Assembly (NCBI GenBank): GCA_018829205.1
Contig: JAHJUE010000019.1
Span: forward strand, 62,001 to 126,000
DNA length: 64,000 bases
Source: Bacteroidota bacterium
GTDB taxonomy: Bacteria > Bacteroidota > Ignavibacteria > Ignavibacteriales > Melioribacteraceae
Direction of reading: 5' to 3'
Below are positions 10,617 to 26,689 of this stretch, piece after piece. Numbering within the stretch: position 1 is the stretch's first letter; each line of letters opens with the position of its first letter. A model generated the notes under the pieces. That model saw nothing but the letters and a program-made list of their open reading frames with translations, had not been told where the DNA came from and searched no databases. A program made the position numbers and the translations under genes.

Positions 10617-11576
10617 TTATTGAATCAATTTTATTAATTCTTTAAAACTGCCGGATACTTTTTCTTCATCGGGTATTTCGTTATACGCAAGCGCTGAAAG
10701 TTCTCTCTTATATGTTTCTTTTAATTGCTGCCAGATGTTCGTAAAATCTGTTATTAATGGTGATTCATTTAGTTTTTTTGATTTCCAGTTTTCGGGCTCG
10801 TCAAATAAATTTTTGTCATGTTCCAATATTTCATCAAATCTTTTTTTGAAGTCTTTAGATTTAATAAACTCATTACATTCGGCATCATTCAATAAATAAT
10901 ATAAATCATAGAAGTGTCTAATTTTAGAAGAGATGCTTAACACTGTTTCTTCAGCAAATGAAAATCTTATTAATGAAACTAATTTTTCCAGTAGGGTTTG
11001 TTCTTTTTTCAAAACATTTATTGTGAACGGCTGTAATACATATTCTTCTATATATTTTTCATTATTTGTTGCTTTCAAAAAATCATATATAAAACTTTTT
11101 ATTGTGCATTGCTGATAAGGGAAAGGATTTGCAAATGAATTTATTTCAACTATGAGTCTATTGTTTTTATTTTCCGAATCTATACTTGAATACTCAAATA
11201 CCGATTTACGAAACCTAGAACCCTTGCTGGTTACTCCTTCCAAATCGACTTCATTAAGTTCAGTTGTGATTCCTTTTTCAACCTCTCTTATTATATTTTT
11301 TACTTGATTCCCGGATTTATCTTCTGTGTTTGTTATTGCAATATCAACATCTTCAGAAAAACGATTGATTAAATCAAAACCTTTGGAAAGTGATGTACCG
11401 CCTTTGAATACCGTTTCACTTGCATAATCAGTTTTGGATAATCTGTTTAGCACAAGTGTAATCCAGTAATCTTTTTCAACAAACACTTGGTTTATATTTA
11501 GATGTTCAGAAGCCGCTCTGATTGTGTCGCTAAAAAATTTTTTATCGGCAGTGTGTAATTTCATTTGATGTTCCAT
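10617..11576 (-). CDS. AbiEii/AbiGii-family nucleotidyltransferase toxin
   Basis: A 319-residue protein of the AbiE type IV toxin-antitoxin group. The nucleotidyltransferase signature is visible as FKGGTSLSKGFDLINRFSEDVDIAIT (GG[TS]xLxK, then SxDxD), around residues 58-84. AbiEii enzymes transfer nucleotides (for MenT homologues, to tRNA acceptor ends), halting growth upon phage infection. Its start overlaps the end of the AbiEi-like gene by 16 bp, so translation is probably coupled. Two Met codons (11576 and 11564) could serve as start. Confidence 0.88.
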   Translation of the reverse strand: MEHQMKLHTADKKFFSDTIRAASEHLNINQVFVEKDYWITLVLNRLSKTDYASETVFKGGTSLSKGFDLINRFSEDVDIAITNTEDKSGNQVKNIIREVEKGITTELNEVDLEGVTSKGSRFRKSVFEYSSIDSENKNNRLIVEINSFANPFPYQQCTIKSFIYDFLKATNNEKYIEEYVLQPFTINVLKKEQTLLEKLVSLIRFSFAEETVLSISSKIRHFYDLYYLLNDAECNEFIKSKDFKKRFDEILEHDKNLFDEPENWKSKKLNESPLITDFTNIWQQLKETYKRELSALAYNEIPDEEKVSGSFKELIKLIQ

Positions 11577-12373
11577 TTGTTAATTGAAGAAAGAACTTTG
11601 CCCGCGCCGGGTATTTTATATGTTGTAATAGGATTTAATGATTTATAAAGAGGTTCAGTAAGATAGGTATTCTCTCCCGACAGGTCGGTATCCCGAAGGG
11701 CCGGGACAAGTTTTCCGCTTCGCTTCAATATTTCTTCAAGCAAGGCTCCGAGCAATGCTCTTGCAACAGGTGGATATTTTAATGCTAAGCGCACCAAGGT
11801 TGCTTTATCCTTCTCGGATAAATCTTTAATAATCTTTATTAACCTTTCGCATGTAGAACTAATTGTAGTATCCGGAATTTTTTTTATATAACGAATTGAA
11901 TCCAGGATTTGAAGTAAGGGAATATTGTCTTTTGTTATATTATTTTTTTGCAGGACAAATGAAATTTTGTATCCGGTCCTTTTGAACGCAGGGCGTACAG
12001 TATTTTTACCGATTTGAATTATATTACTTATCTGGGTCGTCAATCCCAATTGGTTGTATATGCTATACCCGGTTAGATAGCCGGTAATTTTACCGTCTTC
12101 TTCCAACAGGTCCTTTACAATCTGGTAACGATTCGGCTGCAATTTGCCAAAGGCAGATTTTTCGGGTTTATAGAATTTACCTTTCGAAAGCTTGGTTATT
12201 TTGCCGGAAGCAACCATACGGTTAAGTGCTTTAATAACGGCTTCTTTCCCGACAGGTCGGGATTTCCGCTTCGCTCCAATATTTTTCACCTCGTTGATAA
12301 AATCAGTATAAGTGAAAACATAGCCTTTCGGCAACCTATCAACAGAACTTGATATGTATTCAGTGATTTTCAT
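11561..12373 (-). CDS. AbiEi-like antitoxin (DUF6088 type), carrying repeat-derived insertions
   Basis: A 270-residue winged-helix protein (PKGYVFTYTDFINEV, then KALNRMVASGKITKLSKGKFYKP) with the AbiEi C-terminal domain; the cognate partner is the downstream toxin. Two copies of the CCCGACAGGTCGGG palindromic repeat lie inside the reading frame: at about 12249-12290 (peptide KRKSRPVGKEA) and 11687-11730 (peptide SGKLVPALRDTDLSGE). Both keep the frame open and are followed by the same TTTCCGCTTCGCT tail. A dyad upstream at 12403-12432 is the likely self-operator. Confidence 0.85.
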   Translation of the reverse strand: MKITEYISSSVDRLPKGYVFTYTDFINEVKNIGAKRKSRPVGKEAVIKALNRMVASGKITKLSKGKFYKPEKSAFGKLQPNRYQIVKDLLEEDGKITGYLTGYSIYNQLGLTTQISNIIQIGKNTVRPAFKRTGYKISFVLQKNNITKDNIPLLQILDSIRYIKKIPDTTISSTCERLIKIIKDLSEKDKATLVRLALKYPPVARALLGALLEEILKRSGKLVPALRDTDLSGENTYLTEPLYKSLNPITTYKIPGAGKVLSSINKWNIK

Positions 12374-12402
12374 AGCCTATATATACTGAAGATATAAGAT
12401 AA

Positions 12403-12432
12403 TGTCCAGTTTTTTAATTAAAATACTGGACA
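12403..12432. promoter_or_regulatory. Inverted-repeat operator of the AbiE-like operon
   Basis: TGTCCAGT (12403-12410) and ACTGGACA (12425-12432) are perfect 8-bp inverted arms with a 14-bp AT spacer, 30-59 bp upstream of the antitoxin ATG at 12373. AbiEi antitoxins are known to repress their own promoter by binding inverted repeats. Confidence 0.6.
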
Positions 12433-12472
12433 AAGTAATAGAAATAAGTACATAATTTTTCCTAAAGTATCT

Positions 12473-12494
12473 ACTTTTCCTATATAGGAAAAGT
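12473..12494. promoter_or_regulatory. Perfect 22-bp palindrome
   Basis: ACTTTTCC (12473-12480), central TATATA, then GGAAAAGT (12487-12494) form an uninterrupted palindrome between the AbiE operon and the divergent retron operon. It probably is a dimeric repressor site. Confidence 0.5.
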
Positions 12495-12552
12495 GACGCA
12501 AATAAGAAAATAAGTATATTTTTAAGATGATGAACGGCGTTAATTATAAATT

Positions 12553-12696
12553 TTTTCCAGAATAAACACAGAACGAAGATGAAATTGTAAATATTTTCCA
12601 GTATAAGACTATTATTTGTAAAAATTTTCCAGAATAGAGTCTTGGAGTAAATAGAAAAAGAATTTATTAAACTATCAGTTAAAATTTACCAGACGT
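12553..12696 (+). repeat. TTTTCCAG iterons upstream of the retron operon
   Basis: TTTTCCAGAATA at 12553, TTTTCCAGTATA at 12594, TTTTCCAGAATA at 12625 and the weaker TTTACCAGACG at 12685. Start-to-start spacings of 41, 31 and 60 bp are close to whole helical turns (about 4, 3 and 6), so a regulator could bind all on one face, ending just before the promoter at 12699. Confidence 0.5.
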
Positions 12697-12698
12697 AG

Positions 12699-12729
12699 TT
12701 GAACTATTAGTTAATATTTGTTATCTTTG
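12699..12729 (+). promoter_or_regulatory. Bacteroidota-type promoter of the retron operon
   Basis: TTG at 12699-12701 and TATCTTTG at 12722-12729 fit the Bacteroidota TTG-N19-21-TAnnTTTG consensus with a 20-bp spacer. Transcription would begin near 12735 and run through the candidate ncRNA into the three genes. Confidence 0.6.
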
Positions 12730-12734
12730 CACAA

Positions 12735-13010
12735 GTTCTTTGAAAATCTGTAATTGAGATAAGTAGTTATCGCCGAAAAACTGAAGTGTATTAGGTTACA
12801 CAATGGCATAGCCATTTTGTTGTGCGCCCTACGGTATTAACAAGTAAGTATCATTGAGTAATACATATTTATTATAAGTTAGTAATGTATTTATACTACG
12901 ATGACATTATAAGGCGGGCATTTTTTCGAATAAGAAGACTCTTATAAAGAGCTACGACGGACGGCATAATTACTTTCAGGCGGGCGGCAATATTGCCGTC
13001 AAACCTAATT
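12735..13010 (+). ncRNA. Candidate retron ncRNA (msr-msd) or structured leader
   Basis: About 275 noncoding bases lie between the promoter and the first gene. Hairpins are visible: TAGG/CCTA and CACAA/TTGTG enclosing TGGC-ATA-GCCA (12792-12831); ATACAT/ATGTAT with outer AGTAT/ATACT (about 12845-12897); CTCTT-ATA-AAGAG (12939-12951); and CGGCAATATTGCCG (12984-12999), whose right arm can instead pair with GACGGCA at 12960-12966. A retron RT three genes downstream makes msr-msd the leading idea, but I cannot identify the priming G or a convincing a1/a2 pair, so boundaries are approximate. Confidence 0.4.
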
Positions 13011-13025
13011 TTCCAGGAGAAATTT

Positions 13026-13277
13026 ATGGAAAAGAAAAACTCAATTTCAGAGTTGATTGAATCATTTGATTCATTCGTTTCAAGGAACCGTAGTTCTTTT
13101 TCACTAGAAGAGCATAACGTCTTAGAGAATGTAAGGCTAAAGCTGGAAGGACTGAAAGTTCAATATTCTCAAAGCAGCAAATCTCAAAGACGAGCTATCA
13201 TTCAGACTATTGTTACTGAATTGTTGAAAATACTCGCAGATCCCAAAACTTGGAATGATATTAAAAACTTTTTTTAG
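13026..13277 (+). CDS. Small helical protein of the retron operon
   Basis: An 83-residue protein beginning MEKKNSISELIESFDSFVSRN. The ATG at 13026 is chosen over an upstream TTG (12993) because a clear AGGAG lies at the right distance. It is all-helical with a central heptad-like stretch (EEHNVLENVRLKLEGLKVQY) and C-terminal IIQTIVTELLKILADPKTWNDIKNFF, which resembles no family I know. It is followed 37 bp later by the XRE regulator and then the RT. It may be the effector or antitoxin of the system (inference). Confidence 0.65.
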   Translation: MEKKNSISELIESFDSFVSRNRSSFSLEEHNVLENVRLKLEGLKVQYSQSSKSQRRAIIQTIVTELLKILADPKTWNDIKNFF

Positions 13278-13314
13278 TGGAGAGTCTTCTTAATTCTTTT
13301 AATTAGGATTTATT

Positions 13315-13599
13315 ATGAATATTGGAAAAGTTATAAAAGCAATACGCTCGGATAAGAACATAAAACAGAAAGAACTTTCCGAGTCATGTAATATATCAGT
13401 TACTTATCTTTCACAAATTGAAAACAATAAGAAAGAACCGGCCTTATCTACACTCGAAGGAATAAGTAAATATTTAGGGATACCCTTGCCAATTATTTTC
13501 TTTATGTCGTTAGAAGATAATGACATTCCGCCGCACAAAAAAGAATTCTTCAAACATCTGCATCCATCTTTAAATGGTTTAATAAAAGAATTTTTTTAA
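13315..13599 (+). CDS. XRE-family HTH protein of the retron operon
   Basis: A 94-residue protein with a textbook HTH_3 domain in residues 1-65 (IGKVIKAIRSDKNIKQKELSESCNISVTYLSQIENNKKEPALSTLEGISKYLGI), then a short helical tail. The stop codon is one base before the ATG of the RT, so the two are translationally coupled. It may repress the operon through the palindrome or iterons upstream, or be the retron accessory protein; retrons with HTH partners are known. Confidence 0.85.
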   Translation: MNIGKVIKAIRSDKNIKQKELSESCNISVTYLSQIENNKKEPALSTLEGISKYLGIPLPIIFFMSLEDNDIPPHKKEFFKHLHPSLNGLIKEFF

Positions 13600-13600
13600 T

Positions 13601-14446
13601 ATGCTTGCTATAAGAAGTTTAAAGCATCTATACTATTTACTGCAAACAAATAAAAAAGAAATTGAAGAAATCTTATCAAAGATAGATGATTTCTACAAAC
13701 CGTTCCCCAAACCCAAAATGAACAAAGACGGAACGGTTAGAATAAAAAACGGAATTATTGAAACACGCAAAATTTGCCCAAGCATAGGAAGATTAAAAGA
13801 GATACAGAATAGAATAAAGATACAGATACTTAGGAAATATGAATTTCAAGATTTTGTCCAGGGCGGTGTAAAGGGTAAAGATAATATCTCAAACGCTGCC
13901 ATTCATAAAGGGAATAAATATTTTTTTACAACAGACCTTAAAGACTTTTTCCCTTCCGTTAATAATAAGGATGTATATAAAGTGTTTGTTGAAAATGGTT
14001 TTTCTCCGGACGTTAGTTCTATTATTACTAAATTAACAACATATAAGGGTAATGTCCCGCAAGGTATTCCAACAAGTAATTACGTTACTAATTTAGCTGC
14101 GCTACCAATAGACTTAGATTTACTAAAATTATGTGAAGGAAAAGGAATTAAATACACACGGTTTGTAGATGATCTAAGTTTTTCATCAAAAAAAGATTTC
14201 CAGCATTTGTTACCGGAAATTATACACATAATTACATCTAACGGATTGAGAATTAATTATAGAAAAACGAGATACAAAATAGGACCAACTGAAATAACGG
14301 GAATTGAAGTAAGAAATAATATCATAAAAGCCAGTAACAACGTACGTATGAAATATTCAACAGCATCTGATGAAAAAAGAAAACAGAGTTTGAAAAGTTA
14401 TATTGATAGAATTAAAAAAGTATCTCACGGAGAAATAAAAAAATAA
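13601..14446 (+). CDS. Retron-type reverse transcriptase
   Basis: A 281-residue RT. Retron-specific signs are NAAIH (residues 98-102), matching the NAxxH motif immediately before the catalytic TDLKDFFPSV (D112), and EITGIEVRNN (231-240), matching the VTG motif that contacts the msr. PQGIPTSN (153-160) and GLRINYRKTRY (thumb side) also fit. The YADD box is replaced by FVDD (188-191), keeping both Asp. The enzyme would reverse-transcribe a linked structured RNA into msDNA. The 3' end converges with the ATPase gene 15 bp away. Confidence 0.88.
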   Translation: MLAIRSLKHLYYLLQTNKKEIEEILSKIDDFYKPFPKPKMNKDGTVRIKNGIIETRKICPSIGRLKEIQNRIKIQILRKYEFQDFVQGGVKGKDNISNAAIHKGNKYFFTTDLKDFFPSVNNKDVYKVFVENGFSPDVSSIITKLTTYKGNVPQGIPTSNYVTNLAALPIDLDLLKLCEGKGIKYTRFVDDLSFSSKKDFQHLLPEIIHIITSNGLRINYRKTRYKIGPTEITGIEVRNNIIKASNNVRMKYSTASDEKRKQSLKSYIDRIKKVSHGEIKK

Positions 14447-14461
14447 TAATCCTCCCGATTG

Positions 14462-16237
14462 TTAAAATTTTTTCCCAAACAACAACTTATTCGGTGTTAA
14501 TACCAGAACCGCTTCTTTTTCAATTTTCTTAGGATTTACTTCGTCGGCATCGCCAAAATTATCTGTCAACTCGCCTTCTTCGTTTAAAGTAAGAATATAC
14601 TGGAATTCATAATTTTGCAGACTTTTTTCTTCAAGGTATTTTACAAGTTCAATAAAATGCGTTTTATCCATTCCATCTAAAATACCATCGTGGATTAAAA
14701 AGCGTGGGGCTTTGAGTTTTTCTTCTATTGAATTGAAAAGAACAGCTAAATCATAAATTAAAGTTCTGCCTTGGTTGCGACCTTTAGAAAACATTTCATT
14801 ATTTGGCAAAACAGTGAACTGAATTTTTGCATCAGATTTCAGATTTGTGGTAATATCGAAAACTGATATATCATCAATTTCAGGATACAACGCATTATAT
14901 ATATCTGAAAAAACTTTTGAGAACTCCAATTCTTTGTCCGCTATTTCTTCTTCAAATTCCAGAATATCGGCTTCAATTTTATTTATCTGCTGATTTATCT
15001 GAACCCTTTCTTTATTTAAATCCCTCAGTATTTTAACTCTCGATTTAAGCTCTGCTGATTCTTCTTTAATCTTATTTAATGTGAAATGCGCTTCTGTTAA
15101 ATCCGTAATTGCTTTTTTTGCTTTCAGCAATTTAAAAATTCCGGCTCTCTCTTTAGTTTTTTGATCTATCGAAACTGATCTTTTATTAATATTTTCTTGA
15201 AGTGAATCTACTTCATCTTGAATAAATTCACGGCGGGATTGGACTAAGTTGTTACGAAAGCTAATTGCATCTTCCAAAGATTTATTAATGTTCTCCGCTA
15301 AAAGCTGGTTGAACTCTGCGTATAATTTTCTAATAGTATTTGGTTTTATGTTTATATCTATTTTAAGGCTGTCTTGATAACTTTTGATCTTCAATTCATC
15401 GCTGCTATTTTGAAACATCAATTCTTTTATTTCTTCGGTTAACTTATTCAGTTTATTCTGATCTATTTTATATTTCTCACTTAGTTCAAATAGTTTTATT
15501 GATTCTTCCAGTTTTTCAATATCAATTTTATACTTTCTTAACTTGCTGTCTATCTCAGGCATTTTAATAGCGCCGTAAGTTTCCGTAATTATTCTTTTCG
15601 CTTCTTTGGTTGTGGTTTCCAATTTAGTCAGATCTGTTTGGACTTGCAGATTTCTGTAAGAAATTTTATTGTCGATATCCAACAGGAAGAAATGATAATT
15701 ATTCAGTTCAATTTCTTTGGCTTCGCGTATATATTTAATAGGATTTAGGAAAGGTTCTTTTTCCGGCATTTGGACTTTAATGTAGAACGGCAGAAGTCTT
15801 CTTAACCATTTATCGGAATAATGTCCTGTATATTTTCTTCTAAATATTATATCACATAAACGCGGTTTAATGTTTTTGATTGGATATTCTTCGTAGGCAT
15901 TATCATCAATCGATAAATAAATGGTAGTAGGTTTATCAAACGATCTTTTAGTAGAATACTGAATTTTGTCTACTTCAAAATCCAAAATGATTGAAACGCC
16001 TTTTAGTATGCCTTTTTGATAAGCTGCATAAAGACGCTTACTATCGCGTTTGTTGTAATTTGAAAGCAATGCGAAATCCATTAAGTCAAGTAAGGTGGAT
16101 TTGCCGATACCGTTTAATGAATTTTTTACTTCTTCTTGGGTACTGACTTCTTTTTTTCCGAAGATATAATTTATTCCCCTTTTGAATTCTACAGGTTCAA
16201 AAACTTCCGGTTCGGAATAAATTTTATTTAGAAACAT
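14462..16237 (-). CDS. ABC-three-component (ABC-3C) system ATPase, DUF2326-like
   Basis: A 591-residue SMC/RecN-like ATPase. The Walker A region NSLNGIGKSTLL (39-50) lacks the first Gly of the classic loop, as in some members of this class. Residues 180-430 are long coiled coil. Near the C-terminus, FLIHDGILDGMDKTHFIEL supplies Walker B and the D-loop. ABC-3C systems are predicted phage-defence machines that couple an ABC ATPase, a small middle component and an effector-bearing protein. It overlaps the middle component by 14 bp and ends the operon. Confidence 0.85.
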   Translation of the reverse strand: MFLNKIYSEPEVFEPVEFKRGINYIFGKKEVSTQEEVKNSLNGIGKSTLLDLMDFALLSNYNKRDSKRLYAAYQKGILKGVSIILDFEVDKIQYSTKRSFDKPTTIYLSIDDNAYEEYPIKNIKPRLCDIIFRRKYTGHYSDKWLRRLLPFYIKVQMPEKEPFLNPIKYIREAKEIELNNYHFFLLDIDNKISYRNLQVQTDLTKLETTTKEAKRIITETYGAIKMPEIDSKLRKYKIDIEKLEESIKLFELSEKYKIDQNKLNKLTEEIKELMFQNSSDELKIKSYQDSLKIDINIKPNTIRKLYAEFNQLLAENINKSLEDAISFRNNLVQSRREFIQDEVDSLQENINKRSVSIDQKTKERAGIFKLLKAKKAITDLTEAHFTLNKIKEESAELKSRVKILRDLNKERVQINQQINKIEADILEFEEEIADKELEFSKVFSDIYNALYPEIDDISVFDITTNLKSDAKIQFTVLPNNEMFSKGRNQGRTLIYDLAVLFNSIEEKLKAPRFLIHDGILDGMDKTHFIELVKYLEEKSLQNYEFQYILTLNEEGELTDNFGDADEVNPKKIEKEAVLVLTPNKLLFGKKF

Positions 16238-16472
16238 CTTTCTTCCCGCTTATGTTAAGAGAAATTTGATAAGTATTTAACACAACAATATCAGCAAGCC
16301 AAAGAAAAGTAATTACATTAAAATACTGTTCCAAGTTAATTGAATGATTTTTTTTTAACCGCTGGAACAGGTCTTCTATGTTATAAGAATGTTTCTTAAG
16401 CGCTTGTATAACAAACGAACCTAAAACCAACAAGTTCGAATTTATGTCTTCGTATTTAGAAGGAATAAGCAT
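16224..16472 (-). CDS. ABC-3C middle component
   Basis: An 82-residue protein. MLIPSKYEDINSNLLVLGSFVIQALKKHSYNIEDLFQRLKK followed by INLEQYFNVITFLWLADIV is the recognisable pattern of the small ABC-3C middle components, which are winged-helix-like connectors between ATPase and effector. It starts seven bases after the upstream gene and overlaps the ATPase, so the three genes form one operon. Confidence 0.8.
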   Translation of the reverse strand: MLIPSKYEDINSNLLVLGSFVIQALKKHSYNIEDLFQRLKKNHSINLEQYFNVITFLWLADIVVLNTYQISLNISGKKDVSK

Positions 16473-16478
16473 CTATAA

Positions 16479-16994
16479 TTACTCCAAGCCTTCAAAAAGG
16501 GGCGCTGATGATAACGGTTTTGGTTTTTTCAAATTTGGTGCGTCTGGAGCTTTCCCAATATCACAGATTTCAAAAATATACATAACAGTTGATTTCATTG
16601 AATTAAAGAAAACAGACGAGGGCAGATTATAAACAGCTAATATTTCATCTGTAATTGTATCAAAATGTTTTGGGTCTTCAACAGGAACATTAATATCATC
16701 AGATTCTTTAAGACGCATATATATTGATTGTATTCTATCAACAAAATTAAGAAAAGGCTGGTCATCTATTTTTAATTGATCTGAAATAAAACGCTGTACT
16801 AAGGTTATTGTTGCAAGGTTATTTGTGTAGGTACGCGAAGCAGATTTAAGTTTATCCGGGAAATTTATTTCCAATTTTTTTGTGATGTGCGCTCTCCTAT
16901 TTCCATCCATTTTTCTGAGTTTATCCGACGGGGTATTATCGTTAAAGATATATGAAAAAAGTTCTTTTAGAATTTCTTGTTGTGATTTTTTCAT
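16479..16994 (-). CDS. ABC-3C C-terminal-domain protein (first gene of operon)
   Basis: A 171-residue helical protein (MKKSQQEILKELFSYIFND to KPLSSAPLFEGLE). The position and the segment IQSIYMRLKESDDINVP suggest the ABC-3C CTD that bridges the effector to the rest of the complex. In most systems this domain is fused behind a protease or nuclease effector; here none is fused, and no catalytic motif is visible. Either the effector function lies elsewhere (the adjacent Fic protein is a candidate) or this is a stand-alone variant. Confidence 0.6.
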   Translation of the reverse strand: MKKSQQEILKELFSYIFNDNTPSDKLRKMDGNRRAHITKKLEINFPDKLKSASRTYTNNLATITLVQRFISDQLKIDDQPFLNFVDRIQSIYMRLKESDDINVPVEDPKHFDTITDEILAVYNLPSSVFFNSMKSTVMYIFEICDIGKAPDAPNLKKPKPLSSAPLFEGLE

Positions 16995-17044
16995 AATTTT
17001 GACCGTTCTTAAGTTATTATTGTATAAAACGGCTATAAACGAAC

Positions 17045-17105
17045 GTGATTTATAAAAGACCTTGAGTTAAATACGTGGTTTATAAATCACACAATTGAGC
17101 CACGT
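17045..17105. promoter_or_regulatory. Paired inverted repeats upstream of the ABC-3C operon
   Basis: GTGATTTATAAA (17045-17056) and TTTATAAATCAC (17079-17090) are perfect 12-bp inverted arms. Overlapping them, ACGTGG (17074-17079) pairs with CCACGT (17100-17105). They lie 50-110 bp upstream of the ABC-3C operon start, in the 257-bp gap after the Fic gene, so control of ABC-3C expression is likely. Confidence 0.5.
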
Positions 17106-17251
17106 TTGGTAAATAAAGTTTGATCTATGCATTATTTCCTTCAAATATTGGGCAAGTGGCTTAAGCTATGCACAAAATTTTTAATTTTTTGGGCATAGGT
17201 GCAGAGCAATGCTCAGATTTCTTAATAAATTGTGCAAAGAACTTATTTTGA

Positions 17252-18334
17252 CTATTTAAGGAGGTTATGAAACTCCGGCAAATAGTAAATTTTATCATTT
17301 TTATATTTCTGCGACTTAATCAAATCAATACGTTCTAATTCAGCGAAATACTTCGAAGCAGTATTGCGAGAAATTCCGAGAGCAGTTTGCATAGTTTTTT
17401 GAGAATAAAACGGAAAACTAAAAAGATATTCTACAAGTTCCGCAGTATAAATTTTAGATTTACTTTGGATAACTAATCTATACTTATGAATTAATTCTCT
17501 GATACCAATAACAGAACTTGTAGTAGCAATTGATTGGGATTCAACGGCATTTAAGATATAGATAATCCATTCTTTCCAATTTTCTATTTTGGTAACTTCT
17601 CTAAGCAGTCTGTAATAGTCGCTTTTATGCTGGTTTATGTACCCGCTAATAAAAAGGATTGGAAGTTCTAATCTTTTGACCATACAGAGGTATAAAACCA
17701 TAAGTATTCTGCCGGTGCGACCGTTACCATCAAGAAAAGGATGAATTGCTTCAAACTGATAGTGCATTACCGCCATTTTGATTAGCGGATCGACTTCATC
17801 TGAATTACTATTAAAATAATCTTCAAAATTTTTAAGTAATTTACGTATTAAATCTTCACCTTCCGGGGGTGTAAACAATATTTCGCCGGTGCTTCTGTTT
17901 TGAATTTTTGTGCCGGGAATTTTTCTTATACCGGGTTTTGATGGTTCTAAAATGGATTGGATTGTAATAAAAGAGTTAGTATTAAGGAATTCTTGATCAA
18001 TAACTAATCTATAACCTTTTAAAAGCGCTTCTCTATAATTTTTTGTTTCTTTTTGCTCAATCTTTAGCTCTGATTCTTCAATATAGGTTGCTTCAATAGC
18101 GTCATTAAACGTAGTATGAATATTTTCAATTTCGGAACTTGCAACAGCTTCACGAAATGAAAGAGGTTCGATTAGTACTTGACGATTTGGGATAGACTTA
18201 GCCTCACCGCTTAAACGAGCTAAAGCAATATTAGTGGTATTAACTTTTTTTAAGATTTCAACGTCATCAAAATTAAAAGACGGAGGAAGAATCGGTAAAT
18301 CATTGTATGGTTGTTCCGGGTTAAAGTTGTTCAT
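17252..18334 (-). CDS. Fic family AMPylase with N-terminal inhibitory helix
   Basis: A 360-residue class II Fic protein. The active site HPFLDGNGRTGR is at 198-209 with all key residues (catalytic His, phosphate-binding GNG, Arg). The inhibitory motif [ST]xxxE[GN] is SSEIEN (66-71), so basal activity is probably suppressed. The C-terminal part (about 300-355) is a winged helix. Fic enzymes transfer AMP from ATP to target proteins. The start at 18334 is 10 bp from a decayed methylase fragment. Confidence 0.9.
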   Translation of the reverse strand: MNNFNPEQPYNDLPILPPSFNFDDVEILKKVNTTNIALARLSGEAKSIPNRQVLIEPLSFREAVASSEIENIHTTFNDAIEATYIEESELKIEQKETKNYREALLKGYRLVIDQEFLNTNSFITIQSILEPSKPGIRKIPGTKIQNRSTGEILFTPPEGEDLIRKLLKNFEDYFNSNSDEVDPLIKMAVMHYQFEAIHPFLDGNGRTGRILMVLYLCMVKRLELPILFISGYINQHKSDYYRLLREVTKIENWKEWIIYILNAVESQSIATTSSVIGIRELIHKYRLVIQSKSKIYTAELVEYLFSFPFYSQKTMQTALGISRNTASKYFAELERIDLIKSQKYKNDKIYYLPEFHNLLK

Positions 18335-18566: not shown

Positions 18567-19184
18567 TCAAGCGAGAAACATATCTCTCTTTAAATTATTG
18601 TTTTTCACAAATGATGTAACTGTTAGGCGATGAACATTGAGAATTCTCGCTATGGCGCTATATGATACTTTTTTTTCAAGTAGTTCTCTGATTTTTTTCT
18701 CTTGTCCGGTAAGCTTAGTTTTTGATGACTTGCGCCCTTTGGGTCTTCCGAGTATGACACCTTCAGCTCTTTTTCTTGCTAGTGCTTCTTTTGTTCTTTG
18801 TGAAATCAAATTTCTTTCAATTTCTGCGGCTAACCCAAATGCGAAAGCCAAAACCTTGGAGTTAATATCACTCCCTAATCTGTAATTATCTTTAATTGTC
18901 CATACCTTGATATCTCTATTCATACAATCATTTAAGACACTCATTATCATTAATAAATTTCTTCCTAAGCGTGACAATTCAGTGCAAATTAAAATATCTT
19001 CTGTTTTCATTTTCTTTAATAGTTTACCAAGTTTACGGTGATCAACATTCTTTGCCCCGGATATGGTTTCTTCAATCCAGCGGTCAATAACAACACCTTT
19101 TTCTTGACAAAAGCGATTGATTTCAAAACGTTGATTTTCTACAGTTTGTTTGTCAGTACTTACTCTAATATACCCATAATTCAT
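18567..19184 (-). CDS. Mpi-type serine DNA invertase
   Basis: A 205-residue serine recombinase. The catalytic Ser is in YIRVSTDKQTVENQR, followed by ELSRLGRNLLMIMSVL, the AFGLAAEIERNLISQRTKEALARKRAEG helix, and a C-terminal HTH (VSYSAIARILNVHRLTVTSF). The sequence closely resembles, from memory, the Bacteroides fragilis master invertase Mpi, which flips short segments between inverted repeats. A GGAG site precedes the ATG. It is divergent from the silent TRD cassette; its start codon is 54 bp from the 13-bp repeat at 19239, making it the probable driver of TRD inversion. Confidence 0.92.
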   Translation of the reverse strand: MNYGYIRVSTDKQTVENQRFEINRFCQEKGVVIDRWIEETISGAKNVDHRKLGKLLKKMKTEDILICTELSRLGRNLLMIMSVLNDCMNRDIKVWTIKDNYRLGSDINSKVLAFAFGLAAEIERNLISQRTKEALARKRAEGVILGRPKGRKSSKTKLTGQEKKIRELLEKKVSYSAIARILNVHRLTVTSFVKNNNLKRDMFLA

Positions 19185-19233: not shown

Positions 19234-19896
19234 GAAAAACGACCGATTTTACGCGGCAGAGACATCAAAAGATATGGATATAACTTCGCTAACCTATGGT
19301 TGATAAATACTCATAACGGAATTAAAGAAAAAGGACTAAGCCCAATAAATATAAATGATTACCCGGCAATTAAAAGGTACTTAGATAATTTTTATCCCGA
19401 ACTTGAGGTAAGAGCTGATCAAGGGGATACTCCTTATAATTTACGAAACTGTGCTTATATGGAGGATTTTTTTTGCCAGAAAATAGTATGGGCAGAGACT
19501 ATTAGAGTTTATTCTGATGGCTCTAGAAATTTTCCAAGATTCTGTTTAGATACTAACTCTTTTACCCTTGATAAAACTTGCTTTATGATGATTAGTAAAA
19601 ATGCTAAATTTATTTTAGCTGTTCTTAATTCTAACCTTTTTGAAAAATATTTAAAAAATAATGTTATGACTTTAGGAACAGGTAGTTTGGGACTTCAAAA
19701 GGAATATATTCAACAAATGCCTATTCCCCAAATTAGCGATACTGAGCAGAAGCAATTTTGTAGTTTAGTAGAACAAATAATTGAAAAAAATGGAAAAGGA
19801 TTAGATTCATCACATTTAGAAAAACAAATCGATGCGCTTGTCTATAAATTATATGATCTAAATGAGCAAGAGATCAGTTATATAGAGAAGGTATAA
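19234..19896 (+). CDS. Silent alternative TRD cassette of the type IIG-like methylase
   Basis: A 220-codon open frame, stopped upstream by TAA at 19231, with no start codon or ribosome site at its beginning. It opens KRPILRGRDIKRYGYNFANLWLI, the same block that begins the TRD of the full methylase (RPILRGRDIKRYGYEFADLWLI, from R855). It continues as a complete TaqI-like specificity domain with different central residues and ends IDALVYKLYDLNEQEISYIEKV. It is tail-to-tail with the methylase gene, 8 bp apart. A reader could call 19300 (TTG) a start, but it is better seen as an unexpressed cassette. Confidence 0.85.
   Translation, partial: EKRPILRGRDIKRYGYNFANLWLINTHNGIKEKGLSPININDYPAIKRYLDNFYPELEVRADQGDTPYNLRNCAYMEDFFCQKIVWAETIRVYSDGSRNFPRFCLDTNSFTLDKTCFMMISKNAKFILAVLNSNLFEKYLKNNVMTLGTGSLGLQKEYIQQMPIPQISDTEQKQFCSLVEQIIEKNGKGLDSSHLEKQIDALVYKLYDLNEQEISYIEKV
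19239..19251 (+). repeat. Inversion-site repeat, cassette copy
   Basis: ACGACCGATTTTA. Its exact inverted copy is at 20541-20553 inside the methylase gene. Both occupy the same codon phase (CGA CCG ATT TTA), so recombination between them keeps the frame. Confidence 0.8.
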
Positions 19897-19904
19897 AACT
19901 AATG

Positions 19905-22900
19905 CTATACAATTTCGATAAAACCAATAGTTTGCCGCTCTTCATCGATTAATTCGTAAATATCGAAAATAAGCTCATCAATTTGTTGTTCAAATTGTTT
20001 GCTATCCTTATTTTGTCGTTTCGATGTTTGTATTTGTAAAACAAGCTTTCTAAAAATTTTTTCGATATTTGCATCAATTTTTTTTACTGGTATTTTATCA
20101 AAAAAAATTTTGCTTAACTCTCTAGTTCCACCTTGAAGTTCTGGGAAGTTATCTCTAAAAGAATATTTAAAAAGTGATGAATTAAAAAAAGCTGTTAGAT
20201 AAGCAATGTTATTTCCGATAACTATAAAACACTTTTGATTAGTTAGAAAACAATCTTCATCATATACAAAAGGCAAAAATTTTGTCATATTGGGGTAGAT
20301 AATTTTTGGTCTAAAAAAATCCTCCGAATAACTTATACTGTCTTGAGTTTCGAACCATTTATTGTTCGTCTTTTTTCTTGCCCCGATTTCTCCAGTTTGT
20401 TTCAGTCGATTGTAACCAAAGCTTAAAAGATGCTGTTTAACTGCTGGGTAATCATCAATATTATAATTTTTACTCGGGAAAGTTGCAATTAACCACAAAT
20501 CGGCAAATTCATATCCATAACGTTTTATATCTCGCCCTCTTAAAATCGGTCGTATAATTTCGACAGATTTTGGGTCTTGGGCAATCAGTTCATCTTTCTT
20601 TTTCCCATCGATAATGAATGCCTCATTAAAACCAGTTAAGACACCACGATAAATGTTTATATCCCAATCTTTAAGCGGTGTCCCAACCCGCTCAATTTTC
20701 TCTTTAATACGTTGTTCAATAGAATTGAGTATTACCCAACTGGTTTGGGGCGAGAATTTAGTTGGAGAAGCATTTTCACTGACATATTCCGTTAGATTAT
20801 TCTTATAACCGTTTTTAACAATGCAGGCTTGAGTTGCAGTCTTATAGTTTTCCTTTCTATACAACAATATGTTTGTGTCAACTGTTGCCGCCTCAAAAAT
20901 CTTCTGCCCGGCAAAATCTATAAGTAAAACTGGATTTGTTTTCTCAGCCAAGTACCTTCTAAGAGGTTCGCCATAACCGGCACGCATCCATTTGTTGGAA
21001 GTAATTAAACATAAATTCCCATTAAGTTTCAGTATATGATTTCCTTTTTCATAAAATAAAGTATATATATCGCCGGTTCGTTTAAAACTTTGGAAATTTT
21101 GTTTCTCATACATTTTGGATAGTTTACCGCTTTCTTTTTGTAGCTGTATATAGGGCGGATTACCAATAACAACATCAAATCCTTCTTTAATCCCAAACAT
21201 CCAGAAAGGATCGAACCAGGGCGTTTCCGAAATATCAAACGGATTCCAGTTTGTAAGCATTGTAACTGCTTCAGTATTTTTTGTTGACCATTCCGCGTGT
21301 TTTTCGGCAATTTTCTTTTGCTCAATCTTAAATTCTTCTTCAATTTTTTCTTTTCGTTTTGCGGAAGCAGTAAAGTATTCTTCTCTTAAACTTTTCAGTT
21401 TGTTAAACTCATCTTCCGAGATTCCAAACGAAGCGGAAAATTCAGGCAAGCTAATTAATGTATTTACACAAACAAATTTAAAGTCGAGGTTAGGAAGGTT
21501 TTCAATTCCCCAATTTGATTTTTTCTTATCAACAGGTTCATCAATAATTAAACTTAACCAGCAGCGTAAGCGGGAAAGTTCTACAGCCATCGGCTGTATG
21601 TCGCAGCCGTAAATGGAGTTGAGGATTGTTTGGAGTTTGAGGTTATAAACTTCCTTTGACCCCCCTTGTATTCCCCCCTTGGTAAGGGGGGAAAGCTGTA
21701 ACTTGAGTGCAATAATTTTTTGCAGCATACCGATTGGGAAAGCGCCGGAACCGCAAGCAGGGTCCAAAATTTTAACAGTGCCGAGTTTATCAAGTATTTC
21801 TTTTGAGAATGGTTTTAGTTCTTCGGGGAGTTCTTCGGTGTGAACGAAGTCTTCAATTTTTTGACTTAAAGATTCTTCACTCCACTTCGTTTCGTTCAGA
21901 ATGACGTCTTTACTAATATTTGATTTGAGATATTCTATAAGGCTTTGTTCTACCATATAATCAACAATTTCGCGGGGAGTGTAGTAAGAGCCGGTTGATT
22001 TGCGAGCTGATTCTTGTGTTTCGGGATTTTGTTCGGCTAATAAGTTCTCGAAAATTCTACCCAGCATTTCCGGGTCAATTGCAATTTCTGCGTTTGAGGA
22101 AGTGTTTTCATCAATTGTAAAATTATATTTCTCTAAAGTGTAATCAAAAAGATTAAAGAACCATTCATTAGGTAAATATAGTTGGTAGTTATCTTTAAAA
22201 TCTTCTTTCTGATCTTCAAACAAACCGCCGTTAAGAAAAGGATAGTCTTTTATTTCATCAGGTAAATTTTTCGTTCTTTCTTTTGCCGGTGTATTGAAAA
22301 CATCAAAGAAAAGTTTTTCCAGCAGTTCTTTATAATAGTTTGTGTACTTACCTACTGCATTGGCAGAGAGAACGTCATCATTAACAATACCTTTCTTTTT
22401 CAGAAACCAACAAAAGATTAATCTGCCGATGAGACGGATTGTGAAATGTTTTTTGACTCCCAAATCTTTAATAAAACTTTTCGCTAGTACATTCTCAACA
22501 AGATCGTTGAATGAACTTTTGATATCATTATAAAACTGTTTATTAACAACGGATATATCAAAGGCTTTCCAGAGTGATTTCCAAAGCTCATTAGGTTCAA
22601 CAAAAAACTTATTTACCTTGCTGCTTACTTCGTTAAGAATGAAATCATAAGTTTTATAATAAGGTTGGTCAACAGCAAAAGGTAAAGTTTTTAATACAAC
22701 TTTTTTGCCTTCTTTCCCGGATAGAACAACCTTATAGGCAGAATGCTGAGGATTACCGAGGAACCAAACTACATAACGTTCTGCAGCTTGTCCTCCGACA
22801 AACTTTTTTGTTATACGTTCAATTGTTTGTTTGGAAAGTTTTTCGTCATTAAGGATAGCTGATAAAATCAACAGTTGTGAAGTTTCCCCTTTTGAACGAT

Positions 22901-23114
22901 GAATTGCGCGAATATCTTTTTGATTTGCGAAGGTTTCGTGGTCTTTAAATAAGCGTAGCGTCTCGCCGCCGAAAAGTTCTTTCTGTACTTGTGCAGGAAT
23001 AACACTATCCCATTCAACTTTATCTTTTATTCCAAACTCTTGCACTAAAGAAAGAGTTAATTCTTTGTAATCGAGTTTTGATTTGTTTTCAACTAATGAG
23101 CGTATGTTTGACAT
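19905..23114 (-). CDS. Type IIG/PglX-like adenine methylase with switchable TRD
   Basis: A 1069-residue Eco57I-class protein: helical N-terminal region, SAM motif I KILDPACGSGAFPIG (about 446-460), catalytic NPPY in VVIGNPPYIQLQ (about 650), and C-terminal TaqI-like specificity domain from R855. It presumably methylates N6-adenine, and with the downstream-partner helicase forms a restriction or defence system. Two repeat-derived peptides lie in frame: ILNETKWSEESLSQ (about 403-416) and SPLTKGGIQGG (about 471-482), the latter just after motif I. I see no PD-ExK nuclease. The gene starts 29 bp after the helicase stop. Confidence 0.88.
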   Translation of the reverse strand: MSNIRSLVENKSKLDYKELTLSLVQEFGIKDKVEWDSVIPAQVQKELFGGETLRLFKDHETFANQKDIRAIHRSKGETSQLLILSAILNDEKLSKQTIERITKKFVGGQAAERYVVWFLGNPQHSAYKVVLSGKEGKKVVLKTLPFAVDQPYYKTYDFILNEVSSKVNKFFVEPNELWKSLWKAFDISVVNKQFYNDIKSSFNDLVENVLAKSFIKDLGVKKHFTIRLIGRLIFCWFLKKKGIVNDDVLSANAVGKYTNYYKELLEKLFFDVFNTPAKERTKNLPDEIKDYPFLNGGLFEDQKEDFKDNYQLYLPNEWFFNLFDYTLEKYNFTIDENTSSNAEIAIDPEMLGRIFENLLAEQNPETQESARKSTGSYYTPREIVDYMVEQSLIEYLKSNISKDVILNETKWSEESLSQKIEDFVHTEELPEELKPFSKEILDKLGTVKILDPACGSGAFPIGMLQKIIALKLQLSPLTKGGIQGGSKEVYNLKLQTILNSIYGCDIQPMAVELSRLRCWLSLIIDEPVDKKKSNWGIENLPNLDFKFVCVNTLISLPEFSASFGISEDEFNKLKSLREEYFTASAKRKEKIEEEFKIEQKKIAEKHAEWSTKNTEAVTMLTNWNPFDISETPWFDPFWMFGIKEGFDVVIGNPPYIQLQKESGKLSKMYEKQNFQSFKRTGDIYTLFYEKGNHILKLNGNLCLITSNKWMRAGYGEPLRRYLAEKTNPVLLIDFAGQKIFEAATVDTNILLYRKENYKTATQACIVKNGYKNNLTEYVSENASPTKFSPQTSWVILNSIEQRIKEKIERVGTPLKDWDINIYRGVLTGFNEAFIIDGKKKDELIAQDPKSVEIIRPILRGRDIKRYGYEFADLWLIATFPSKNYNIDDYPAVKQHLLSFGYNRLKQTGEIGARKKTNNKWFETQDSISYSEDFFRPKIIYPNMTKFLPFVYDEDCFLTNQKCFIVIGNNIAYLTAFFNSSLFKYSFRDNFPELQGGTRELSKIFFDKIPVKKIDANIEKIFRKLVLQIQTSKRQNKDSKQFEQQIDELIFDIYELIDEERQTIGFIEIV
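20541..20553 (-). repeat. Inversion-site repeat, methylase copy
   Basis: Plus-strand TAAAATCGGTCGT, the inverted copy of 19239-19251, covering codons 855-858 of the methylase (R-P-I-L). Beyond these 13 bases the two TRD genes share protein but little DNA identity. Confidence 0.8.
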
Positions 23115-23143: not shown

Positions 23144-26100
23144 TTATAAATTGTAGTAACCATACCAGAAAACCGGTTCAGGTACTTCCGCAGTTTGACT
23201 TTCCTTTAGTAAATTATTACTGATAATAGCGAGATTATCAAGAAAATCAATTGAAATTTTGTTGTCGTTTCTTCTTAGAAAACTTCGTAATCTGTTTTCA
23301 AAAGGAAGATAGTTCTGCCTTGTAAGAATCAAACGCATACGGTTAATATTATCAACAGAATATCTATCTTGGTTATCATTTAATAATTGCAACAGTTCTT
23401 CTTTATACCTTGCAAGAGAAACAGCGCCGCCGGTTCTTTTAACGCCTTGAAAATCTGTTAAGTCTTCAAAATCCATAGTCAATTGATATGCTTTTTCTGC
23501 ATCAAAATATTTTTGCGCTAATTCTTTAATTTCGGTTACTGCCGATTCAGTTAACTGAAGGGCTTGACGTTCAGTCTCAAAACTACGGATAGTATTTAAA
23601 GCTCGGAGATGGTTTTTTTCTTCAGCAACTTTATTTGAGTCGTTTCTTATAAAACGAAACTCGCCTTTAGCAATGTTATAAATTAAGAGTTTTTGCTCGT
23701 TGGTAAGTGAATTTATTTTACACCACTTATCAAGATTAAGGGTTTTAATTTTTTCTTTTTCTTCATCAGAGGCTTTACGCATAAATTCACGTAAATCATT
23801 TTCAAATACTTCATCGAACGCCAAATCGTTTTCCCGTTCAAGTTCTTTTATTGCATCTTTTTGTTTGGCTTTATCTTCACTATAAATATTTTCAATTAAG
23901 CCAAATTGCTTTGGAGTTATTTCTTCACCGAGGACACTGCTGTCTAAACCTACGCTTGCACCAATTACTTGAATCTTCTCTTGCAATTTTAACATCAGAC
24001 GTAAAAACTTATCGAGCTGGTCTTCCGGTCTAAAGTTATAAACATTTACGGTTTCAAAAACAGAACCAAGACGATTTATACGACCATTGCGTTGAACCAT
24101 TTTAACAGGGTTCCAATGAAGGTCATAGTTAATAATAATTCCGCAATCTTGAAGGTTTTGACCTTCGCTAAGAACATCGGTAGAACAAAGAATTTTTATT
24201 TCCTTTTTACCGTTAACCAAACCATTATTTATCTCTTGATTCTGTGCAATTGGAGCGAACCTTTTTACATATTCGCTTTTGTACTTGCCGTTTTTGCTTT
24301 TTAGAAATGCGATTTCGGAATTCTCAAGACTAATCTCAGAAATAAACTCTTTGTCTAATGAATCTTTCAAGTAATCAATAGTGGTAGCAAAGTAAGAAAA
24401 AATTAAAACTTTCTGTCCTTTGAGATTTTTAAGTAACTGCTTCAACTTGAGGAGTTTTGTATCGACATCAACTGAGGATATAACACTGTTGATAAGACGA
24501 ATTATTTCTCGATCTTGTTGAATAAAGCGTTTTATATTCTCAACATTATATTCTTCTAAGTTTACAGGTAAATATGCATTCTCTTTTTTATACTCTTTGT
24601 CAGCTTTTCTTCTTTGTTCTTCCCTATCATTAAATTTTGAGATTTCTTCATTTATTAAATCAATTATGTCTTCATCGGGCTCATCATCAAGAGCGCTTAT
24701 TGCTTTCTGAATAACAGAAGGCTTTACTAAAATTTTATCTTCAAAGAAAAGTCTTTCAAACTGTTCAAGATATGTTTTGTAACGAGAAACTCTTTTAGAA
24801 AAAGTAAAAATAGATGAATCAAAAGATTTAAAGAGGGTAACTTTCATAACCCCGGTTAAATTCTTCCGTGATTTTGCTTGCGAATCTTCATCAACCGTCT
24901 TATGAATTTTTTCAGTGAGATAACTGTATGGAATAAGTTTTAGACCTTTTATAGCCCGGTCAATAAAATGGAAAATTGATTCATACTCGGTTTGATGTTT
25001 CTTAACGGTTTCTTCTTTTATTCGGAAAAATTCTTGCAAGCCGACAATATCTTCTTTCTCTTCATCTTGATCTGTCATTTCTACTGTAAAAAACTTAAAG
25101 AGTTCAGGATTGGTTTTTTCTAGAGAGTTTAACTTGTCGCTGATTACTTTACGGAGTTTTTTACTATCCAGTTCATAAAGAACGTTTATTAAATCTTCTT
25201 CTGGAAAGATTATTTTTTTACCTTCCAAAGTAGCGTCCGGAAAATCTTTCTTTACTTGGTGTCTCGTTCTTTTAACCATTATACGATTAAGAATCGGATA
25301 TAGTTCGGAGAAAACTTCAGGAGAACCTAAACGTCGGAACTCACTTTGAGTTGAACGGAAAAAGTTAAATATGCTTTCAATGCCGAAAGAGGAAAAGAAT
25401 TTATCATTCCCACCTTTTGCCAAAAGAATTTGATTTGCTAAATCTTTAATACCGTTATTCACAGGCGTTGCCGAAAGCATTAGTACTTTAGGTATTTCAG
25501 CACAAAATTCTTTATCTACCAACAAATCGAGAAGATTACGGAATGATTTGCTTGCTTGCGTTTTTAAGTTATGGCTTTCATCTATAACCAAAAGATCAAT
25601 AGCATTATTACGTTTGGATTTTAACTTTCTAAAAAGTAAATCTCTTTTTATAGATTCAAAATTATTCTCCAATGCGAATTCCGTTATAGAATAGACCGGA
25701 GCATTTACGGTGATTTCATTAAGATGGTTTTGCCAGTCTTCGCGCAATGATGCGGGAGTAATTACAGCAACGTTTTGACGTTTAAAATAACCAATATCTT
25801 CTATTACTCTTTTTGCGATGAATGATTTTCCGAGGCCAACACTATCTGCTAAAAGGCACATTCCAATTCTATGATTATATAAACGGGATAATACTTTGCG
25901 TACACTTTCTTCTTGGAATAATGTTAAATCAACTCGTGTTTCAAAAAATTCTTCCGATCTTAATTTTTCTTCTATCTCTATATCTTCGCCGTAAATTTCA
26001 TAGAGAATTTTTATGTATAGTTCGTAAGGCGAGTAACTCAAACTACCAAATTTGCTTAGTCCAAGGATTTCAATCTTGAATTGTTCGGTCCAGTCAATGC

Positions 26101-26689
26101 TGCCCTCGTCATTCCATAATTTTTCAAACCAGCTCCGGTGGCTTGGATCTTGACCAACACTCTTCGGTAGATAATTAACTATACGGTGATCGTATTCAAC
26201 ATCATTAAGTTCTGTATTGCCTAATAAACCGCTGCGGGTAAAATTAGAACTCCCAATAATACCAATAGAATTTTCAGCTTCGGAACCAAGTATATAACAT
26301 TTAGCGTGAAGGAAACTTTTCTTGTAAAGTTTTACTTTTATACGACCAGTTTGAATGTACTTGGTAATAAAATTAACAGCTTCTTTAAATTCCGGTTTAA
26401 AGGGTAGTTCTGATAAGTCAGCTTTCAAATATTTTTCGGGGAAAGCCGTATCAAGTTGATAGGAACGAATTTTGGGCTCTTCGCCAATTAGAAATCTTAC
26501 TTCAGAAAACAAATTATTGTTTAGAAATGCTTCCAATGCAGGTAGCAGTTCAATTACCGCAGGTAAATCCCAATAACCTGTTGCAACTGAGAATTGGGTA
26601 AATTTGTCCGATAGAAGATGACCGCAAAGGAATTCCTTTAACTGAAATGGGGTTGCAGAATTATCTAGAAGTTTGGGATTAATTTGCAT
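23144..26689 (-). CDS. PLD-nuclease/Snf2-family helicase, partner of the methylase
   Basis: An 1181-residue protein. The N-terminal HKD-type nuclease domain shows FLHAKCYILG (H128, K130) and IIGSSNFTRSG. The Snf2-like helicase follows: ADSVGLGKSFIA (about 280), DESHNLK (about 368), LSATPVNNG, and the C-terminal VLSEGQNLQDCG and QRNGRINR (about 865). HKD-Snf2 fusions accompany methylases in restriction-like and DISARM-related loci and are predicted to translocate on and cut foreign DNA. It is first in the operon, with the methylase second; the divergent gene at 26790 shares the promoter region. Confidence 0.88.
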   Translation of the reverse strand: MQINPKLLDNSATPFQLKEFLCGHLLSDKFTQFSVATGYWDLPAVIELLPALEAFLNNNLFSEVRFLIGEEPKIRSYQLDTAFPEKYLKADLSELPFKPEFKEAVNFITKYIQTGRIKVKLYKKSFLHAKCYILGSEAENSIGIIGSSNFTRSGLLGNTELNDVEYDHRIVNYLPKSVGQDPSHRSWFEKLWNDEGSIDWTEQFKIEILGLSKFGSLSYSPYELYIKILYEIYGEDIEIEEKLRSEEFFETRVDLTLFQEESVRKVLSRLYNHRIGMCLLADSVGLGKSFIAKRVIEDIGYFKRQNVAVITPASLREDWQNHLNEITVNAPVYSITEFALENNFESIKRDLLFRKLKSKRNNAIDLLVIDESHNLKTQASKSFRNLLDLLVDKEFCAEIPKVLMLSATPVNNGIKDLANQILLAKGGNDKFFSSFGIESIFNFFRSTQSEFRRLGSPEVFSELYPILNRIMVKRTRHQVKKDFPDATLEGKKIIFPEEDLINVLYELDSKKLRKVISDKLNSLEKTNPELFKFFTVEMTDQDEEKEDIVGLQEFFRIKEETVKKHQTEYESIFHFIDRAIKGLKLIPYSYLTEKIHKTVDEDSQAKSRKNLTGVMKVTLFKSFDSSIFTFSKRVSRYKTYLEQFERLFFEDKILVKPSVIQKAISALDDEPDEDIIDLINEEISKFNDREEQRRKADKEYKKENAYLPVNLEEYNVENIKRFIQQDREIIRLINSVISSVDVDTKLLKLKQLLKNLKGQKVLIFSYFATTIDYLKDSLDKEFISEISLENSEIAFLKSKNGKYKSEYVKRFAPIAQNQEINNGLVNGKKEIKILCSTDVLSEGQNLQDCGIIINYDLHWNPVKMVQRNGRINRLGSVFETVNVYNFRPEDQLDKFLRLMLKLQEKIQVIGASVGLDSSVLGEEITPKQFGLIENIYSEDKAKQKDAIKELERENDLAFDEVFENDLREFMRKASDEEKEKIKTLNLDKWCKINSLTNEQKLLIYNIAKGEFRFIRNDSNKVAEEKNHLRALNTIRSFETERQALQLTESAVTEIKELAQKYFDAEKAYQLTMDFEDLTDFQGVKRTGGAVSLARYKEELLQLLNDNQDRYSVDNINRMRLILTRQNYLPFENRLRSFLRRNDNKISIDFLDNLAIISNNLLKESQTAEVPEPVFWYGYYNL

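Follow-up and report, generated by a model that had tools for sequence, protein, structure and literature searches.

We analysed a 64,000-nt stretch of DNA (hereafter the window: positions 62,001 to 126,000, forward strand, of contig JAHJUE010000019.1, assembly GCA_018829205.1) from a bacterium of the Melioribacteraceae (Bacteroidota; Ignavibacteria). It carries a single-chain adenine methylase whose C-terminal target recognition domain (TRD) meets, tail to tail, a second TRD on the opposite strand, beyond which lies a serine invertase; a helicase gene stands upstream of the methylase. The initial annotation had read this arrangement as a TRD cassette that is inverted by the Mpi-type invertase beside it, a reading that the layouts and opposite TRD orders of related loci support. 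The features are listed below; the labels 'active' or 'expressed' and 'silent' describe the layout of open reading frames (ORFs) and not expression.

18567-19184, minus strand: Mpi-family serine invertase, 205 amino acids (NF009949; Pfam Resolvase, 1.2e-33)
19239-20553: putative outer invertible segment, 1315 bp, with silent TRD-B (plus) and expressed TRD-A (minus) tail to tail; the flipped frame is open
19239-19251, plus strand: outer inverted repeat, invertase-side arm, ACGACCGATTTTA
19240-19896, plus strand: silent TRD-B, 218 amino acids, open frame (TaqI_C specificity domain, E 2.9e-10)
19461-19473, plus strand: inner inverted repeat in silent TRD-B, GGAGGATTTTTTT, codons for EDFF
19905-20549, minus strand: expressed TRD-A, the last 214 amino acids of the methylase
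20313-20325, minus strand: inner inverted repeat in expressed TRD-A, GGAGGATTTTTTT, in the same codon phase as the TRD-B copy
20541-20553, minus strand: outer inverted repeat, gene-side arm, ACGACCGATTTTA, codons for RPIL from residue 855 on
19905-23114, minus strand: type IIG-like N6-adenine methylase, 1069 amino acids (Pfam Eco57I, N6_Mtase, TaqI_C)
23144-26689, minus strand: PLD (HKD)-Snf2 helicase, 1181 amino acids, 29 bp upstream of the methylase (Pfam PLDc_2, SNF2-rel_dom, Helicase_C)

The methylase frame runs through the outer repeat at residue 855. The protein matches Eco57I (2.1e-40) and TaqI_C (3e-12) in Pfam and REase_MTase_IIG in PADLOC (578 bits), and it contains DPACGSG and NPPY, which we take to be adenine-methylase motifs. 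An N6 methylase and a C-terminal TRD are thus held within one chain, as expected of a type IIG enzyme. No nuclease domain was matched in this chain with Pfam or NCBIfam, its N-terminal part being without an assignment; the neighbouring PLD-Snf2 protein, which PADLOC assigns to 'HKD+Snf2' (154 bits), could be the source of nuclease activity and is the probable nuclease or restriction partner of the methylase. In a predicted model, the fold of silent TRD-B resembles the adenine methylase M.BseCI (Foldseek E 6.5e-07, TM 0.48, rmsd 7.2), the one structure match that we used. Swapping this domain should alter which sequence is methylated. The models of both TRDs are moderate (mean pLDDT 73.6 and 70.9), the N-half being poorer than the part past the inner site. 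Two other assignments were considered and rejected: BREX PglX (80.3 bits against a cut-off of 500) and the DISARM helicase DrmD (140.2 bits against 610). None of the nine window proteins scanned exceeded the cut-off of any BREX model.

The invertase scores 339.6 bits against NF009949, the 'master DNA invertase Mpi family' (cut-off 272), and therefore belongs to that family; solved DNA invertases and resolvases are related to it. Within the genome, the next-best serine recombinase match to it reaches only E 8e-6. As the initial annotation had stated, the gene starts 54 bp outside the segment, a perfect 13-bp inverted repeat lies at methylase codon 855, and flipping the 1315 bp retains the reading phase, so that the present protein of 1069 residues is exchanged for an intact one of 1072. 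The silent TRD had also been described as promoterless; a consensus scan, the sole check, gave no promoter-like excess between 18500 and 21000 (8 matches, with 10.6 expected). Serine invertases require only a short shared core and flanking half-sites, and the 13-bp arms fit this need. Exact copies of ACGACCGATTTTA occur twice in the 4.59-Mb genome, both at the cassette; this search covered exact matches.

We surveyed the layout at two depths. In the first survey, 97 genomes were searched, including the window's own; the other 96 belong to the same family or order and none to the same genus. The invertase was found at E 1e-20 in two of the 97, the window's genome and Ignavibacteria G002 (79% identical), and G002 repeats the window layout of methylase, second TRD tail to tail, and invertase. 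A wider scan took in 84,980 species, one genome apiece, and found 395 relatives of the invertase. The frequencies below hold for the best 80 of these, which were retained; numbers with the prefix L denote individual loci. Where at least 1200 bp were available on the cassette side, 44 of 59 loci had the order methylase (plus), active TRD (plus), silent TRD (minus), Mpi invertase (plus). The 21 loci with shorter flanks had a minus-strand TRD in 7 cases and none in 14. Of the 53 minus-strand ORFs that lie next to such an invertase, counting the window's, 42 match TaqI_C. Viral homologues served as a comparison (53 found; 35 analysed after 18 weak or partial ones were dropped): none of the 35 viral invertase loci had a TRD match, and the cassette layout was absent from all 24 viral Mpi loci whose flank reached 1200 bp. 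The cassette layout is not peculiar to the window genome.

The initial annotation had proposed searching relatives for the two TRD orders, and both orientations occur among related loci: in G002, in two Bacteroidota pairs and in a pair of Lactococcus plasmids. In G002 (L071), the expressed TRD resembles the silent one of the window and vice versa (A-A' 55.5%, B-B' 48.5%, other pairings 34-41%). Chryseobacterium Leaf404 and C. taeanense (L060/L075) are fully swapped, with 80 and 79% identity crosswise and 33 and 30% in parallel, as are Pedobacter AJM and Sphingobacterium lumbrici (L093/L113; 84 and 87% crosswise, 30 and 33% in parallel). Among the 21 pairs listed, none had a parallel identity of at least 65% for both TRD copies. 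Taking the 36 best inter-locus TRD matches of at least 60%, in which reciprocal ones are counted twice, 20 join an active to a silent copy and 16 join like to like, the pattern expected if the state can change.

The Lactococcus plasmids pJM1F and pUCCL629A both have the order helicase, N6 methylase, minus-strand ORF and Mpi invertase, and a profile search found a TRD pair in each; the minus-strand ORF is annotated as a TaqI-like specificity domain in pJM1F and as a hypothetical protein in pUCCL629A. They have one invertase protein accession in common and their methylase bodies are collinear (92.5%). The expressed stretch 2370-2865 of pJM1F is silent in pUCCL629A, where it is inverted and 99.2% identical over 496 nt; the reciprocal stretch, also inverted, is 85.2% identical over 535 nt. 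The exchanged stretches comprise the pre-TRD and N-half, and the near-100% identity drops to ~50% at the inner site.

Two further properties of the relatives bear on whether the silent copies are in use. In 6 of 10 TRD comparisons, including one between two silent copies (0.18), the ratio of non-synonymous to synonymous change (pN/pS) was 0.13-0.20, with synonymous change near saturation in 3 of the 6; the remaining 4 comparisons, which are more diverged, gave 0.25-0.51. From these ratios the TRDs, silent ones too, look to be under purifying selection. The cassette side of the invertase has a contig end within 2 kb at 30 of 80 loci, the other side at 5 of 80 (binomial p 2e-5), an excess as mixed orientations would cause, to which shared repeats could contribute.

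The inner 13-mer, GGAGGATTTTTTT, was missed in the initial annotation. All four combinations of flips leave the frame open, giving 1069 (present), 1072 (outer), 1074 (inner) and 1067 (both) amino acids, and a second inverted repeat in mid-TRD is found at many relatives' loci. We counted codons at 22 loci, excluding the 4 of 63 TRDs that lacked the inner protein motif by the pattern used. Within loci, codons at shared residues were identical at 134 of 158 positions in the inner site, compared with 654 of 1293 over the remainder of the TRD; between loci, agreement was 76% and 50%, respectively. The Glu codon was GAG in 46 of 47 cases at the inner site and in 198 of 891 elsewhere. As controls we used 15 homologous methylase loci from relatives, the stretch retrieved for each having no invertase match; 14 could be aligned at the inner site. 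Their mean inner-site matrix score was -9.6, compared with 35.6 for the 59 cassette sites from which the matrix was built; 13 of the 14 scored under the lowest cassette site (13.4), and one (L040) scored above it, at 17.1. Among the 23 locus pairs sharing a C-half at 60% identity or more, the order of N- and C-halves was discordant in 15 and concordant in 8, where pairs may share loci. By these counts, the DNA sequence of the inner site is itself conserved across the family and the two TRD halves are reassorted there, which suggests an exchange point that would give four enzyme forms. Either the invertase or homologous recombination may act there. A recombination motif common to the outer and inner sites, proposed by eye, was unsupported by the weight-matrix scan.

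The outer site is more variable in position. In the window and G002, the RPIL codons open the silent copy and lie 46-54 bp from the invertase, and L081, L088, L111, L115 and L120 resemble them by eye. At most other loci, the silent copy is ~80 residues longer, and ~80-130 bp separate the invertase from the outermost repeat, which by eye reads AGCG.TT..TTAG.CA. What the family has in common is the layout more than a single fixed position of the outer site. The exact outer repeats are 13 nt in the window and 19 nt in G002; agreement of the arms begins at ACGACC and GACCC, respectively, and the part shared across other loci narrows to GACC. L123 (7379-8704) and L115 (241-986) have a common 746-nt block that includes the invertase, is 99.1% identical and ends exactly after GACC, past which L123 runs into a truncated alpha/beta hydrolase gene. 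This junction suggests either off-target recombination or a chimeric assembly. Because the arms agree from GACC and the L115/L123 block ends after it, we infer that GACC is the likeliest exchange point, allowing for a possible chimeric assembly. By eye, many of L046-L125 also have AT-rich words in common, for example TGTTTAAATTAAAC and TGTCTAAAATAA, at a point ~100 bp upstream of the invertase. They resemble the reverse complement of the common outer site and are possible extra invertase-binding or autoregulatory sites.

The invertase tree (123 sequences; a quick method with SH-aLRT support only) contains a group of 81 rows (support 89, not starred) that takes in 53 of the 55 cassette-associated invertases. 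The cassette label clusters on this tree, with 14 changes compared with a shuffled mean of 32, although near-copies add to the clustering. In a starred group (95), the window invertase is joined by those of G002, where a TRD pair is present, of L115, where a silent TRD lies at a contig end, and of L123, where there is no TRD.

We infer that the segment inverts in this organism and that this invertase drives it. The adjacent Mpi-family enzyme would pair the short outer sites and flip the 1315-bp segment, swapping expressed TRD-A for stored TRD-B with the reading phase kept. The switched enzyme would methylate a different DNA sequence and, with its PLD-Snf2 partner, would probably restrict at that sequence; the second pair of sites in mid-TRD probably allows the C-terminal half to be swapped alone, giving four forms. 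We consider it highly probable that the locus is an invertase-driven specificity switch of a single-chain adenine methylase/restriction system, probably with an inner exchange; the invertase may use the inner site as well, different target sequences are predicted, and a link to phage defence is putative. The broader proposal, slightly better than an even bet, is that a lineage of Mpi invertases is dedicated to type IIG-like methylases and, through two nested pairs of coding sites, runs a four-state shufflon of TRD halves within a clone, often alongside PLD-Snf2. In these data the lineage is found mainly in Bacteroidota and relatives, and the nested site pairs lie at or before the TRD start and in mid-TRD.

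Several observations weigh against such a switch. The assembly has one cassette orientation. Both outer arms specify one conserved peptide, RPILRGRDIKRYGY, and when it was recoded at random with the codon usage of the methylase, a shared run of at least 13 bases arose in 11.8% of trials (identical RPIL codons in 0.56%). The outer 13-bp repeat on its own is therefore weak evidence, explicable by protein conservation, and the weight of the case is carried by the relatives. The inner repeat of the window is weak alone too, as identical EDFF codons arose in 14% of random recodings, and GAG is commoner at the site in the controls as well (19 of 35, compared with 50 of 207 elsewhere). The inner-site matrix fails to pick out the outer sites, so that use of both by a single enzyme is unproven. 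The outer repeat of most family members is at a different place from that in the window and, accordingly, the first nine TRD codons lack DNA-level conservation within loci (80 of 187 identical). Among the relatives with enough flank, 1 of the 59 loci has a minus-strand TRD only and in 14 no TRD was found. The TRDs of the window and G002 are old homologues (~50% identity) and record no recent flip, the C-halves of pJM1F and pUCCL629A do not match each other, and the Lactococcus invertase is only 61% identical to that of the window.

An alternative source of the exchanges is RecA-dependent homologous recombination or gene conversion between the TRD copies, with the invertase incidental. Long inverted repeats in L048 (81 nt) and L055 (125 nt) could support RecA, the identity at the inner site is readable as a gene-conversion footprint, and the mismatch between the inner matrix and the outer sites points the same way. 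However, exact outer repeats of just 13 and 19 nt in the window and G002, an Mpi-family invertase in the same place beside the cassette at 44 of 59 loci, and the clustering of the cassette label on the invertase tree (14 changes against 32, near-copies contributing) make this account quite improbable. We rate as very improbable that the silent TRD is a stranded duplicate whose switching has ended or never existed. It would agree with the single orientation in the assembly, with a repeat that alone is within chance, and with the Lactococcus plasmids pLLUC147A and pUCCL635A, in which a methylase is present without a silent TRD or invertase annotated behind it; against this, the silent ORF is fully open, silent TRDs of relatives have low pN/pS, and relatives have opposite orders and contigs that break in the cassette. 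The chance that the enzyme, like Mpi of Bacteroides, inverts promoters elsewhere in the genome and adjoins the methylase by coincidence is negligible: NF009949 does bear the name of a multi-promoter invertase, but the exact repeat is confined to the cassette, 44 of 59 homologues adjoin the same kind of cassette, and on the tree the window invertase groups with those beside the TRD pair of G002 and the silent TRD of L115, and with that of L123, where there is none. An invertase-driven switch is the reading that we prefer.

The PLD-Snf2 helicase had been described as part of the layout. The gene is confirmed by Pfam, but as a partner it is common rather than constant: of the 30 cassette loci with 6 kb or more upstream, 15 gave a tblastn match to it. 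L032 (G130:C171) pairs PLD-Snf2 (76%) with a methylase core (61%) as in the window, and its TRD is unrelated; no invertase match was found in its 17.7-kb contig, which represents a cassette-free version. Other variants were seen. L055, L056 and L125 have three TRD matches upstream of the invertase and are possibly larger shufflons. Behind the G002 invertase (L006:9500-9600), an apparent remnant of a TRD C-terminus, LENQIVYKLYGLTEEKIK, was noticed by eye, hinting at a lost third TRD. L050, L062, L092 and L098 have the tail-to-tail layout with a more distant methylase (core 27-35% identical) and other inverted repeats, and in three of these four KGEDV or KGDDV replaces RGRDI. On the other side of the invertase, the window is rich in defence genes (10617-18334):

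10617-12373: AbiEii/AbiEi pair
13601-14446: retron-like reverse transcriptase (best PADLOC model RT_VI)
14462-16237: DUF2326 ATPase (PDC-M68B)
17252-18334: SoFic-type Fic protein

Switching of TRDs by recombination is already known, for HsdS and for pglX. HsdS systems have a separate S subunit with two TRDs, adjoining hsdM and hsdR and often a tyrosine recombinase, whereas in the window one methylase chain carries its own TRD at the C-terminus and the invertase is a serine enzyme of the Mpi family. In lactobacilli, inversion at BREX pglX gives a single-chain adenine methylase another C-terminal specificity part; the window differs in having no BREX model over cut-off, a PLD-Snf2 partner and an Mpi-family invertase. 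Mpi of Bacteroides fragilis, which flips many promoters on and off genome-wide, falls in the same NCBI serine-invertase family as the window enzyme, but the window has one coding cassette whose exact repeat is nowhere else in the genome. Inversion within coding sequence, as in the window, is reportedly the subject of Milman et al. in 2023 (gene-altering programmed inversions), who may list members of this cassette family, and is said to be that of Chanin et al. in 2024 (intragenic invertons). We found no title or abstract on single-chain methylases switched by Mpi invertases, which is no proof of absence, as these two studies were not covered.

Type I HsdS loci are switched by inversion, e.g. 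SpnIII of Streptococcus pneumoniae (PMC4948785) and those of a wider survey (PMC7394358), and hsdS inversion is described in Prevotella intermedia (PMC5608340). Like the window cassette, these inversions lie in specificity genes and swap expressed and silent TRDs. Type-2 BREX-related (BR) systems combine an HKD-nuclease/Snf2 helicase with an N6 methyltransferase and include a DUF499 ATPase and DUF3780 (PMC12839542). They share with the window locus the pairing of an HKD-Snf2 fusion effector with an N6 methylase, and the word 'inversion' is absent from the main text of that paper.

Homologous cassettes occur in culturable Chryseobacterium and Pedobacter and on dairy Lactococcus plasmids, making the switching rate, the methylome heterogeneity of clones, phage escape and the modularity of TaqI-type TRDs directly testable. 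Reassorting half-TRDs would be a natural source of new methylase specificities. With an invertase group that is probably largely dedicated and that probably works at two nested crossover points, these loci would show specificity switching by recombination to reach beyond separate HsdS subunits, into single-chain methylases.

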